Assembly: GCF_000004075.3 (NCBI RefSeq)
Contig: NC_026660.2
Span: 5,208,001-5,272,000, forward strand
Reading direction: 5' to 3'
DNA: 64,000 nt
DNA from: Cucumis sativus
Lineage: Eukaryota; Streptophyta; Magnoliopsida; Cucurbitales; Cucurbitaceae
Positions 26,501 through 39,250 of the stretch are shown piece after piece. Within the stretch, counting starts at the first letter, position 1, and every line of letters starts with the position of its first letter. Made by a program: the position numbers and the translations under genes. Under the pieces are notes generated by a model, which saw only the letters and a list, made by a program, of their open reading frames with translations, did not search any database and was not told where the DNA came from.

Positions 26501-29500
26501 CTAAAAGTCGTCATCATCTTCTTCGGCTATGTGTTTTGCAAGTTCTTGTTCCTGCTGTTGTCTTTCTCTCCTTTTCTCAGCACTTTCTTTTTCCTTATGT
26601 GAATTTGGTGGAAACCGAAGGGCACGCACTGCCTCGTTATGCGTATTCAGGCAAAATGCAATCCTCGAGTTGAAAGCAGCTTGAGGTTCATTGGTCGAGT
26701 AAATATCACCAGTCTCCTTTGATACCATCCATCCATTTGCATGATCGACTGTCGCATCAATTGCTCCATCTCGAATTGCCTTGGAGACAATACTTTCAGC
26801 ATCAGCAATGGGATTTGCTGAGTCCAACCTAAGCTTCTGAGCAACATCTGCCAGAGAAATGCGTGAATAGGAAATGCTAATGTTGCGAAGCCCAGTCCTG
26901 ATGACATTATGTCGCAGCCTCACAATCAAGTTGTTGGTTCGATCTGAGCTGAAAGTACTAGAGAAGCGTTCAGCAACAATCTTGAAAAGCTCCAAGTCAC
27001 CAATTCTCACAGCCTGAAAAAAAAAAGCATTGTTATTTAAAGAAAAGAATAAACTGGAATCACACTGCCATCAACTAGACTAGATGACGAACTATGGAAA
27101 AGTTGGAACTATTAATTCTTCAACCAAAAGGCCCTGTGTTATCCCCTCCACCCATATGTATCATCTATCGATACTATCAGCAACTGACCTATGGGTTCCA
27201 CTAACAAGGATCCTGACAGTACCATAGCAATCCCCGCTTCGCCCATCCTATTCCTTTAATATATATTGATCCACCCAGGGACTATCTATAGCTAACCAAC
27301 TGTAAACTTAATGAAAGAGAATAACTGAAAAGTATAAAAAAAATAACCAACAAAAATTACATTTGTAAGTTCAAAGTATGGCCTCAGAGCTTTCTCCATG
27401 TGTTTCTGCATGAAAACGGTTCTCTCAGGAATTTCTCCTAGCAGCAAGCGAACAATGATTGCCCATTTGTTGCATTGTACTCGAAAACCAAGAGCAGCAA
27501 TGGGTGCTTTCCCAGCAGCTTGTAGAAGAGATCCCTTTGCATCTGTATACTCCAGCTGAATGGTCCTGATCTTACCAAGGTAAAACAGGTACCTACAGAA
27601 CTGTAATGATAAATCATTATGAGATATCTTCCATTCTAGCTAATAACTGAAGCCTAATACTAAATAACATCTCAGAATACGATGCTTAGATTCTTATGAA
27701 TTAACATACTACACGGTTGCTATATACTACAATTTCACAAGCATATGGCTAATCATGCCAATTTTATCGATTTCAACATCAGGTTACCTAAAGGTATTTT
27801 TTGTTATCTTATACCATAAATTTCAAAACAAAGGATTCAATGAAGAACAAAGTTGTATTTCATTTTTTCTGTGTTTTCAAATATACATTTGATGGCAGAT
27901 TTGGAAATTGTATCCCAATTTAAGCAGTTGTCCAAAATATAAACTAAAATTTTAGTTTTTTCTATAAGCATAAACAATAAAATAGTAGATAATACCAACT
28001 AAATATTAGGTTACAAACAAGTTTTATGTTATAAAAGTTGCAGAGTAATGATTTTACAATAGCATATGAATTATAATATATGATATTGTGCCTATTTTAA
28101 TTTAACAAAAATAAAATTAGTTCATAGAATAGAATACTATCATTAAAGGCTTTGTTTTTCTTTTTTTTCTTTTTCTAGTGTAAGCATGCAGTTTAAAATT
28201 TCAAATTCAAGTGATTATTATACAAAAAACGTAGAAACACAGTTGTCATCATTTTCACTATTTGGTTCGTAGATTCCAAAAATAATTGAGGATAAATCTT
28301 CCAAACCAAATATTTGTTGAATCAATTTGACTCAATGTAAAACAAAATTTAGAACATGCTAGAACTATCTAAATGATGGTTGGGTTACAACTACTAGAAT
28401 ATCTTTTTGAACTCAAGGACACAATAGTACAACCTATAGATCGATCCTATTCAAGTAAGGTCGTTACATCTATTAGACTATTACAAGCATTTCTATTAGG
28501 AATGCTGCCTTATTAAATCATAAAAGTATTTCAAGAACCCACAGATATTTATTTCCTTAGAATAAAGAAAGATATTAAAATAGAACTAGGAACTTAAAAC
28601 TTGCCTGCTGATTTGAGTGACCTTCAAACCGGGGTGCCTTGGACCTCAACTTCTCAGCTTGATCATATAGGTTGTAGTGGAGATAATTACGAAGTAGAAG
28701 GTTAAGTAGGGTTTCCTACATCACATTGTTGTCCATACATAAGGTGGCATCATAATAAACTCATGGCATAATCCACTGAAAAGATTGGAAGAAGTACCTG
28801 ACCCAACTCATCGTGGCGCAAGGTTGCAATGCGATGCAGGGCTAGGAGGTTACTGTCAATAAAAAATTTCAATATTATATGACAAAAATCTATACAATTA
28901 GGCATTCATCCTCATTTCTATACTCCATATTGAAACCACAAGACCCATACAGAGACATAACATTAACTACCACAACCCTATTACAATTTTAGATGATAAA
29001 CTAACCCCCTTATTTCTGCAAGATCGCCAGTGAGTTCATAGCTGAGGGAGTAATAGAAGTAGAGCCTGGATGCTAAAACATCAACTGTTCTCCTATTAAG
29101 GTTCTTAAGCCGTGCAATGCTTGCTGAGGCGCAAGCCTTAGCCTGAAATTTTCGGTAAGTGATCAGGATGGTCAGACAAGATTAAAAGAAAACGAAAGAA
29201 AAACACTGATTCATTTGCAAAAAAACTTACATCGCCATATTTCTTGTGATCAATCAAAAATATTAGCACAATCAAGTAGCAAAATATCTCTATCTCGGGC
29301 AAATGGTGTTTGGCAGGAGCTTGAGTGGCCGTGTCAACATCCATTTCACAGTCATCCTCCTAAGCAATTGTACAATAATTTGAAGGCTAAGAACACTACC
29401 ACCAAGAACCAAAACTTACACGGATCAAAGGCACACAGAAACAAAAGAACAAACTAGCCAATAATTTCTAAGTACCTTCGGAAGAAATGAGGATAACCTA

Positions 29501-29935
29501 GTGTGCACCTCAGACCCTGTGGGGAGTACAAGATTCAGAAATTGAGAAAGAACAGAAGCCTTTAACTTGCGCCTCAACGCCATAGTGAGACGAATGGCAC
29601 GAACAATCCGCCGAACCTCCCGGGCATAGGCCCCGGTCTCAATGAGCGACACAATTTCTTTCAAATCTAATTGAAAAAAGAAATCACGAGTAAAATTCAA
29701 AACCAAGAACTTTAAGAATTGAGTGAAGCCCTAAAGACCAAACATCCAATATACCAGAAGATATCCCAATCCCTAGAACAGCAGTAAAGAGTTGCATTCA
29801 AATAAACAACGCAGAAAAACAGGATTGAGAAAATATGGGCAAACGTTTCTTACTCTGTATAGTTGAGGGAGACACTGAAGAGGAAGAAGACGACAATGGA
29901 GCAGGAAGCTCTTTCATCTCGGCGTCTTGAGTCAT
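26501..29935 (-). CDS. RPN3: 26S proteasome regulatory subunit RPN3 (PSMD3)
   Basis: A non-ATPase lid subunit of the 19S regulatory particle; it is a PCI-domain scaffold in nucleus and cytosol. It starts [13 protein letters not shown] with a Ser-rich N-terminus. The first intron join gives IQNLKEIVSL (donor near 29855, acceptor near 29667). Later exons read [79 protein letters not shown] and [20 protein letters not shown]. The final exon (26501-27013) has [20 protein letters not shown] and [20 protein letters not shown], the PCI winged-helix part. The C-terminus is a charged helix ([20 protein letters not shown]) ending in DDDDF, typical of plant RPN3. The family is about 485-490 aa and all its parts are present. 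The start is the Met of MTQDxEMK, conserved in plants. Confidence 0.96.
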
Positions 29936-30189: not shown

Positions 30190-31130
30190 GAACAAAAGAT
30201 CTAAACGACGTCGCTTTGACTTTTTATCTGAAAAGAAGAAAGAAAGAAAAATAAACAAACAAACTTTGAAAATTTATATTTTATCGATGTGTTGGTGCAT
30301 ATGCGAGTGCCTATGCCTAGTTTTGTGTTCTATATATACATATATATATCAACCCTAAATGAAAACGAGTTTAGCTCGTGAAGATTTGACGACATTTTAA
30401 AATTTTACTAATTGTTCTACAATTGTTGCAATCGTTGATAGTGAGATAAAAGATATATTGATTGCAATATTTTATATGCTAAGAGTGAATTTACCCTTCT
30501 TTCGATGTTCATATGCTATTCTCCATTAAGCAATTGTCAATAAATTTTAACATAATATTTAAACGTTCAACTTGTTTCTTTGAAAAACTAGAAGGTTAGT
30601 TTTATTTTCTAGACAAAAACGACCGAACTCAAGAAAGCAAGCGCATGTTCAAATATTATTAAAATAATCTTACTCGATTAATCATTAAAATATCACTATC
30701 TTTTTTTTTTTGTTACAACAATCATAGGATAAAATTGAAACACATGCTAAATACCATTAAAATAATTTTACTTTGACACTAAATAAAATATAACTTGACT
30801 ATGTGTATACACACCATTAGTTGTATACATTTTCCTCGCATTATATTATAAACAGCAAGAAAAGCATGCTTAAGTTATAAAGATGCTCATTCTATCTTGT
30901 AGAGGATTTTGTAGGGTGCCCAATCGAATAGATTAGCACCAGTCTTATGATTCTAGATTATTGAGTAAGGGACTAAAGGATTGTTGCTAAATACTTTTAA
31001 TGAACACGTCAAAGTAATTTCTTATGATGGGTATGTGTACATGTTTAAGTCAAAATGGACATTGTCTACCATTATTGAATACTCTAATTATATAGATCAT
31101 AAAGTCCTATAAACTATTTCTTTAAGTTAT
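30190..31130. other. Spacer upstream of RPN3
   Basis: The first part is the RPN3 promoter and leader, including a GACGTCGC-type motif near 30210. The rest is AT-rich, with no further gene until the U5 fragment at 31.15 kb. Confidence 0.5.
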
Positions 31131-31145
31131 ATAGGAATGCCTCTG

Positions 31146-31206
31146 TTAAGGAACTCCTCCAAAAGCAGGCATGCGGTGAATGCAATCAGCAAAAACAGTA
31201 TTCATT
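31146..31206 (-). pseudogene. U5 snRNA pseudogene fragment
   Basis: The stretch matches the 3' half of the U5 gene at 31.74-31.86 kb in the same orientation. Read on the plus strand, CTCCTCCAAAA, then AGGC, ATGC, GGTGAATGC and AGTATTC recur in the same order and near-identical spacing. The match stops where the invariant U5 loop begins, so loop I and the 5' stem are missing. The Sm-type site is altered, and no USE promoter element was seen upstream. It is either a truncated duplicate or a dead relic. Confidence 0.65.
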
Positions 31207-31734
31207 GCATACTTTATACAGCTTAATTGATGTCCATTTTCTCTGCCTTTTCCAATTATGAATACGTTGACTGCCCTACCCAATCACACCATTATTCTAA
31301 AATTGAATCTCGGTTTACGTTAATTATCAGATTAATTAATCATTTATATCTTTCTTGTGTTTTTTTAAATAAGTTCTATCACAAAGGAAACAATTTCCTT
31401 GTTGGTGTAACTGTGATAATATAAATTATTCCTCGGTCGTACTAAACTTAAGTTATTTCACGTTAATTAGTAGCTAATATATTATCATTTTGTATGTCCC
31501 ATTATTTCCTTAACATGACTTAGCAAAAGAAGAAAAAGAAAACCACTCAACATGAAATGCAATAGAGCTCACACTAAGGAGTAAGGACAGGACGACACCT
31601 AAAAGCAGAACAGAAGGAATGTACACACAAACATAATATATACTACAAATATGAAAAGATATAGTTCGTATAAAATCAACATCATTATAATCATAAATCA
31701 GATCAATAAAAGAAAGTTTGAGTTTAGGAATATA

Positions 31735-31859
31735 GGATTTTCTCGAAAATGAGAAAATCCTCCAAAAATAGGCGTATGCCGGTGAATGCGGCAAGCACAC
31801 GGTATTCTTTAGTAAAAGGCGAAAGAATAGTTCGCTATGGGCTTACCGCCCGGCTCCGT
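31735..31859 (-). ncRNA. U5: U5 spliceosomal snRNA
   Basis: U5 snRNA holds exon ends together at the spliceosome's catalytic centre. On the minus strand, 31801-31830 contains the universally conserved loop I, CGCCTTTTACT, closed by a perfect 8-bp stem (TATTCTTT/AAAGAATA) and preceded by the plant-typical CATAGCGAAC. A basal stem is also visible: GCCGG with CGGTAAG on the 5' side pairs with CTTGCCG and CCGGC on the 3' side, one G-U included. An Sm site TATTTTTGG (31762-31770) follows, then a perfect terminal hairpin with 10-bp arms (GGATTTTCTC/GAGAAAATCC, 31735-31760). All parts are in the right order for a 115-125 nt U5. The 5' end (about 31859) is estimated from the TATA distance and the basal stem. 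Confidence 0.95.
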
Positions 31860-31886
31860 GAACTTGATGGTGGCAATGCAACGGCA

Positions 31887-31937
31887 TTTTATACCCTCCA
31901 ACCCGTGTGCGATTTTTGAAGATTAGCGATGTGGGAA
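31887..31937 (-). promoter_or_regulatory. Plant snRNA promoter (USE and TATA) of the U5 gene
   Basis: On the minus strand the upstream sequence element reads TTCCCACATCG (31927-31937), one base from the plant consensus RTCCCACATCG. TATAAAA lies at 31887-31893. The 33 bp between them matches RNA polymerase II-type plant snRNA promoters (U1, U2, U4, U5), not the shorter spacing of Pol III U6/U3 genes. This supports an active U5 locus. Confidence 0.9.
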
Positions 31938-31959
31938 CTTGGCCAGTGTTTACAGGCCA

Positions 31960-33640
31960 ATCTCTTTTATGGCCCAAAACAAAATTCCACTTACTATTTA
32001 CATTAATCGATAGGTTAACGGTAGTTGGAGCTCATTTGCTGTGGATCTGTTCAGATTAATTTCCGTGTGTTTTCAAATATTCTTTTCGATAATTGGAAAC
32101 ATTCTTAAGCACTTGAAATGTCTAATTTTTTCTTTTTTATAAATAAAATGGGTTGCTTTGCTTTCATATATAATTTAATAGATAAGTTTTCGTTCGTTGA
32201 TTGAAGACTTCTTTTCTTTGTTACACTATAGTTTCATAACCTTTTTTTAGTACAAAAGGTTGGAGGATTGAAGCCTCCAATGTTGAACTAAAATTGCTAA
32301 ACAGAGAAATAAATCCTAGAAATTAAATTCAAACACAATATCAAAAGCTCAACTCAACTACAAAGTAGTATAGTTGTAATGATGAATGATCTAGTAAACA
32401 CGATTCTAAACTTGCAATCATCTTAGTATTTTTGACAGATTTAAATTTGCAATCAAGTCCTCTTCCTCTTACCTATTGGCTTCTCCATCTTTCATTGATG
32501 TTATTTCAATTTCCAGTGACGAAGCTAACACTTAGCTTGTTAGACAATGTACGGGTGATTCTATTATCACAATATCCCGACTTCAATTAGTCTCCATTGT
32601 ACAAACCACAAATTTTGCAACAGGGAAATAATAGAAACTGAGTTCTGGATTAAAGTTCACATAATTTAAGCAAAATGGATAGAATTATGAAGATGGGATA
32701 CTGTGAGGGGAAGTAATTACGAGCTAGGCAGTAGGAGTTAAAATAGAAAGAAAAAGAAAGCTTTTTGCTTTTTGTTGGTTTAGGGGAAACGGACAATTAA
32801 ATGAACAAAACTTCACGTATACGTTGTTTTTTTCACCATCAGTAATATCTAACAAATATTTGATAGAAAATAATAATGATAAAAACAAAAATAAATCATA
32901 GAAATGATTAAATTCAAACAAAACCAAAAATATAATTTAACATTATAAACATAAATAACACTAAAAATTTATTCAAATATCCAAATCAGTATGCGGTCTA
33001 CTTGGTCATCTAGCTATTGCAAAATTTGCAGCTAGAAACATGTGCTCTTTCTCCCTCAGCCATCTCTCTGATTCTCATTAACCATTCTCTATACTTGCCA
33101 CTTGGGAGTAAGAATACTCAAACGTCATAACCAGATAATATGACACTCATGTTCTACCAAAACACTGTTAGTGTATCCTACTGAAACAATCTTCGTATAC
33201 TAGCGATCAATGTGTGGATATTTGTTTGTTCAATAACCAACTTACGTCTATCCCATCAGAGGGTTTTTATCATTTCAATATAGTCGTCAAAAGATGAAAA
33301 GAACTTCCAAGTTTGGGTTTAAGAGACTTACCAAAGACAGAAAGGATTTTGGGAAGCTTGACAAAGAGAAAACGACAGCCAAGGAGCAACTGCAAGCGAA
33401 AGAGATACGAAACACGAGAATGTCTTTAAATTACAACACTTCATAAGAAGTTAAATAGATTTTTTTTTTTCCTTTTTGTTGGTAATGAAGAGGGGCAAGG
33501 TAACAGGCATCACCAATCAATATTGGATGCCGAGATCGACAACTTCTACTACCGAAAATCAGATTTACACAAGACTGAACTATCCATCTAAAGAGGGAAG
33601 GAGAACTAAGATTCTGTAAGATGATAAATAAGTTATGCAT
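31960..33640. other. Intergenic region between U5 and SnRK1
   Basis: AT-rich sequence with no coding region I can support; short ORFs here lack any recognised motif. The right end holds the 3' UTR of the SnRK1 gene. Confidence 0.55.

Positions 33641-33693: not shown

Positions 33694-39250
<5,557 letters not shown>

Follow-up and report, generated by a model that had tools for sequence, protein, structure and literature searches.

The window analyzed here is a 64-kb stretch of the cucumber genome (C6:5208001-5272000; coordinates without a prefix are positions within it). Its minus strand carries a gene for U5, a small RNA of mRNA splicing whose genes form a known multicopy family. The Rfam U5 model (RF00020) aligned to 31855-31737 (-) with a score of 92.4 bits (E 7.3e-15) over its full length (positions 1-117 of 117), and this was the sole above-cut-off Rfam match within the 64 kb. 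An initial annotation had proposed a U5 unit here, hidden in intergenic DNA, and had named the U5 covariance model as a check; the locus passed that check with a wide margin (92.4 bits against a gathering cut-off of 40). The word hidden was too strong, since a single routine Rfam scan detects the locus, and it was unwarranted because U5 genes are so well established as a multicopy family.

A laxer Rfam search of 31000-32600 returned nine non-U5 matches, every one below its own cut-off. A single one of these fell at the U5 spot, a match to SmY (E 0.65, 31769-31736) that spans the Sm site and the terminal hairpin. Compared with RF00020, the window copy has all of the family features (a full-length match with loop I, stems, Sm site and 3' hairpin) and differs in one nonstandard pair, 16-59, in the second stem, and in one deleted model position and two short insertions, none of which takes it outside the family score.

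Roughly 1.8 kb separates the U5 gene from the coding exons on either side. On the higher-coordinate, upstream side is a minus-strand kinase gene with a KA1 exon at 33697-33882 and kinase-domain exons at 36513-36725 (26.3 bits, under the Pfam cut-off of 31.7) and 37325-37846; from the combination of KA1 and kinase domain, this is presumably an SnRK1/AMPK-type kinase. Downstream is a minus-strand gene with PSMD3/RPN3 domains (Pfam), whose first ATG, judged from the open frame, is likely near 29935; the presumed first coding exon of this gene had no Pfam family match, and neither did two open frames that overlap U5 (31513-31842, minus; 31728-31916, plus). Described by coding exons, the locus is indeed intergenic, lying between the KA1 exon and the likely first RPN3/PSMD3-like coding exon. 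A location inside a coding gene was rejected on the basis of the likely ATG near 29935 and the KA1 exon end near 33697; an undetected intron or untranslated exon may extend to the U5 locus.

The neighboring exons were also searched against the genome. The RPN3-like exon at 26504-27070 (-) had one other match, C7:992501-993052 (90%), which sits about 9 Mb from the U5 match on C7. The kinase exon had 174 genome matches, and the best outside the window among the matches listed, C5:11164504-11164884 (82% and 78% over two parts), lies megabases away from any C5 U5 match. Because these matches are so far from the C7 and C5 U5 matches, no segment shared with another U5 locus was seen in the genome searches with these two exons (for the kinase exon, among the matches listed).

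Predicted RNA

The U5 coding region occupies 31735..31855 on the minus strand, as do all elements described below. It is 121 nt long from the Rfam start and 125 nt long if the start is at 31859; the model match ends at 31737 and the hairpin stem continues to 31735. Loop I with its closing stem, the basal stem, the Sm site, the terminal hairpin and the upstream USE and TATA box, all listed in the initial annotation, were recovered in that order, at those positions and on that strand. In the fold, the 5' arm of the basal stem, GCCGG (31850..31854), pairs with CCGGC (31778..31782), the latter placed by the paralog alignment as well, and two of the five pairs show double changes across 12 copies. 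The second stem joins CGGUAAGCCCA (31838..31848; Rfam alignment, fold and paralogs) to UGUGCUUGCCG (31789..31799; fold and paralogs), with 10 standard pairs at 11 positions, pair 16-59 (C.U) being broken in the window copy. One U-G wobble is present among the seven pairs of its CGGUAAG/CUUGCCG portion.

Loop I, CGCCUUUUACU (31811..31821), matches the Rfam consensus and is closed by 8 bp between UAUUCUUU (31822..31829) and AAAGAAUA (31803..31810), both arms being given by the Rfam alignment and the fold. Eleven of 12 copies are identical across its 11 columns, and the C4 copy differs at one. Loop I contacts exon ends at splice sites. A role for it in 5' splice site choice has been described (PMC9803359). 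The predicted Sm-binding site, AUUUUUG (31763..31769; Rfam alignment), is identical in 12 of 12 aligned copies, and the terminal 3' hairpin (31735..31760) has 10 bp and a 6-nt loop with a folding energy of -12.7 kcal/mol. The whole U5 RNA of this locus folds at -44.1 kcal/mol, compared with -25.9 +/- 3.3 kcal/mol for dinucleotide shuffles, none of which (0/500) was as low.

Upstream elements

A USE, TTCCCACATCG (31927..31937, -), agrees with RTCCCACATCG at 10 of 11 letters and occupies the same place as in other promoter-bearing U5 loci. Allowing at most one mismatch, the 64 kb contain two USE matches where 0.82 are expected, and two or more were found in 21 of 100 shuffles; taken alone, the USE is within chance expectation for a stretch of this length. 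It becomes convincing because of its fixed place in the family: in 12 of 13 U5 loci, a USE with 10 or 11 of 11 letters lies 79-82 bases before the model match. The TATA box, TATAAAA (31887..31893, -), follows the USE at 33 bp, a Pol II spacing.

The original work on the USE-TATA spacing rule is said to be that of Waibel and Filipowicz. The distance is described as four helical turns in Pol II snRNA genes and one turn less in Pol III genes (PMC9845283). For the U5 loci, the best-fitting TATA-like box was sought in a fixed interval, 21-45 bases ahead of the RNA; seven of the 12 boxes start with TATA and the remainder are looser. Across the 12 promoter-bearing copies the gap is 32-35 bp, a range that this choice of interval partly bounds. 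U6 loci served as a control, with 30 of the 48 U6 matches examined. A USE with a USE-TATA gap of 24-26 bp is present in the four top-scoring loci (113.1 bits each); of the other 26, 25 lack a USE and the last has a wrongly placed USE-like site. The window copy thus resembles the Pol III U6 genes of the same genome in having a USE and a TATA-like element, both of which are correctly positioned in four of the 30 U6 loci, and differs from those four in its gap, 33 bp rather than 24-26 bp. This bears out the Pol II spacing proposed in the initial annotation and rules out a Pol III gene, and the U5 and U6 sets together offer an in-genome demonstration of the spacing rule. Within the 30 U6 matches examined, the loci that lack a properly placed USE have a promoterless look. 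A search of U2, intended as a further Pol II comparison, yielded no usable spacing: a USE of at least 9/11 was found in none of 23 matches, and the TATA stretch reads N in 13 of them.

A conserved block, CACGG (31856..31860, -), marks the likely transcription start region. The A at 31859 and the G at 31857 are kept in 12 of 12 promoter-bearing copies, and also in a promoterless copy on C7. The usual TATA position is the -30 region; the TATA box begins at -34 if the start is 31859 and at -38 if it is 31855, so that a start at 31859 suits the usual position better, while 31855 is where the Rfam model begins. The start near 31859 put forward at the outset is kept as one of two possible 5' ends, the other being the A at 31855.

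The 3' flank

In plant snRNA genes, a 3' box, CA(N)3-10AGTNNAA, is reported to be required for processing (PMC5079582). The window copy has a degenerate core, ACTCAAA (31717..31723, -; consensus AGTNNAA), 11 nt past the hairpin. A scripted search for a consensus 3' box found none in this copy, the best fit being 5/7, which 448 of 500 shuffles also reach; the search for the whole box was itself weak, with only four of 13 copies having a fit that 30 or fewer of 500 shuffles reach. The trinucleotide AGT is absent from the 28-base 3' stretch of the window copy and of one C5 copy (C5d), and present in 10 of the 12 promoter-bearing copies; another C5 copy, C5a, carries the 3'-box consensus in full. 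The mean in random stretches from the same loci is 4.2 and only 1 of 2000 trials reached 10, a statistic that is optimistic because the AGT count was chosen post hoc, with the sequences already seen. The claim of a complete U5 unit therefore stands for its elements and is slightly too strong overall, given a degenerate 3' box and a broken pair in one stem; the missing consensus box lowers completeness and leaves the identity of the RNA as U5 unaffected.

C5d (C5:4426704-4426822) resembles the window copy in two respects, a broken pair 16-59 and no AGT in the 3' stretch. These two copies also have the most differences from the majority over 95 columns (10 each), followed by the C4 copy with 9.

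The U5 family and covariation

Genome-wide, the U5 model gave at least 13 matches, all above the cut-off, with scores of 57.8 to 97.9 bits; 46 first-look candidates were scored, and the count of 13 is a lower bound. The window copy ranks third in score among the 13 found. Six matches lie inside about 17.5 kb on C5 and two inside 1.4 kb on C1, and the window copy on C6 is isolated, apart from both clusters. A DNA search with 261 window bases recovered all 13 of these loci, along with a 56-base fragment at C5:4400663. Eleven of the 12 other U5 places aligned across the RNA and little beyond, and the C3 copy alone aligned from USE through hairpin, at 78%. The USE, TATA-like box and start block nevertheless recur in a multiple alignment of the U5 loci.

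One match, C7:10003688-10003808 (57.8 bits), has neither a USE (best 6/11) nor a TATA-like box and is likely, from its sequence, a U5 pseudogene that can serve as a negative control. Arabidopsis is reported to have 14 U5 genes, each carrying a USE and a TATA box, and snRNA gene clusters that include a tandem U5 duplication (PMC545797). As described there, the Arabidopsis family is like that of cucumber in being multicopy, in having USE and TATA, and in including a tandem arrangement; the cucumber set differs in its numbers, with at least 13 matches, 12 of them with promoter, and a biggest cluster of six, on C5. A limited full-text term search of the literature found no account of the cucumber U5 gene set.

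Covariation was examined in 12 of the 13 copies, the C7 copy being omitted as promoterless and the terminal hairpin being left out of the count because of indels. Standard pairs make up 98.3% of the 288 pair cells (12 copies, 24 pairs). Both sides have changed in six of the 24 pairs, compared with 0.7 +/- 0.8 in shuffles, none of which (0/500) reached six, and sliding the partner by 1-3 columns reduced pairing to 31.6-49.0%. The sliding control allows for the relatedness of the copies, which the shuffle control ignores.

Set against the majority base of the other 11 copies, the window copy has 10 differences in 95 columns, of which five fall in the 48 stem columns and five in the 47 remaining ones. 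Two pairs, 6-74 (UG to GC) and 12-63 (GC to AU), are restored by four of the stem changes, and the fifth opens pair 16-59. Random placement of five stem changes gave at least two restored pairs in 277 of 200,000 trials. These two compensated changes point to selection on the window copy itself. It had been argued from the basal stem of this one sequence that structure is kept; complementarity within a single sequence is no proof of that, and it is the compensatory changes among paralogs that show it.

Discussion

The locus is a genuine, ordinary member of the well-known family of plant U5 snRNA genes. It has the sequence and structure of a U5 RNA, correctly spaced promoter elements and compensation in its stems. 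Our favored reading, which we hold with considerable confidence, is a stand-alone plant U5 family gene that is transcribed by Pol II and whose product acts in the U5 snRNP; judged by its sequence, it is probably a working gene. By analogy with the family, Pol II, guided by the USE and TATA box at Pol II spacing, would transcribe the minus strand from about 31859-31855, and the transcript would be cleaved near 31735. An Sm ring would be assembled on AUUUUUG, and the RNA would then enter the U5 snRNP, where loop I would hold exon ends during splicing.

The alternative that deserves most discussion is a U5 gene in early decay, with promoter and fold near intact, that is poorly processed or silent through decay of the 3' box and loss of a pair. 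Three features speak for this: AGT, which 10 of 12 copies carry in the 3' stretch, is lacking here; pair 16-59 is broken; and the copy ties for the most differences among the 12. However, the USE and TATA box are intact, as are loop I, the terminal hairpin and the Sm site, only two of the 13 matches score higher with the U5 model, and the two compensated stem changes point to selection; the 3' defect is moreover found in C5d also, so the box may be tolerant. On balance we regard early decay as unlikely. Much the same features, namely the re-paired 6-74 and 12-63, the open 16-59 and the atypical 3' signal, could instead define a distinct U5 variant, condition-specific or less dependent on the 3' box, that would form a slightly different U5 snRNP, an idea to which we give a low probability.

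Reinsertion of a U5 RNA as a promoterless pseudogene has a precedent in the genome, in the C7 copy described above. It is contradicted at the window locus by a USE and TATA box placed as in the rest of the family, and we consider it extremely improbable here. That the resemblance arose by chance, or that the locus belongs to another RNA family, might draw on the USE, which on its own is unremarkable in 64 kb (2 against 0.82 expected). The full-length U5 match at 31855-31737 (E 7.3e-15) rules this out, the only other overlapping Rfam match being sub-cut-off at E 0.65, and its likelihood is vanishingly small.

The value of the Pol II-transcribed U5 gene favored here is chiefly one of annotation: it belongs to a set of 12 U5 genes with promoters found in the genome. 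Together with C5d, it also provides a natural test case for the dependence of plant snRNA processing on the 3' box. Elsewhere in the genome, about 11 kb separates the U5 copy at C3:7943593-7943710 from a top-scoring U6 copy at C3:7954762-7954864; the two share a strand, and each has a USE of 11/11.
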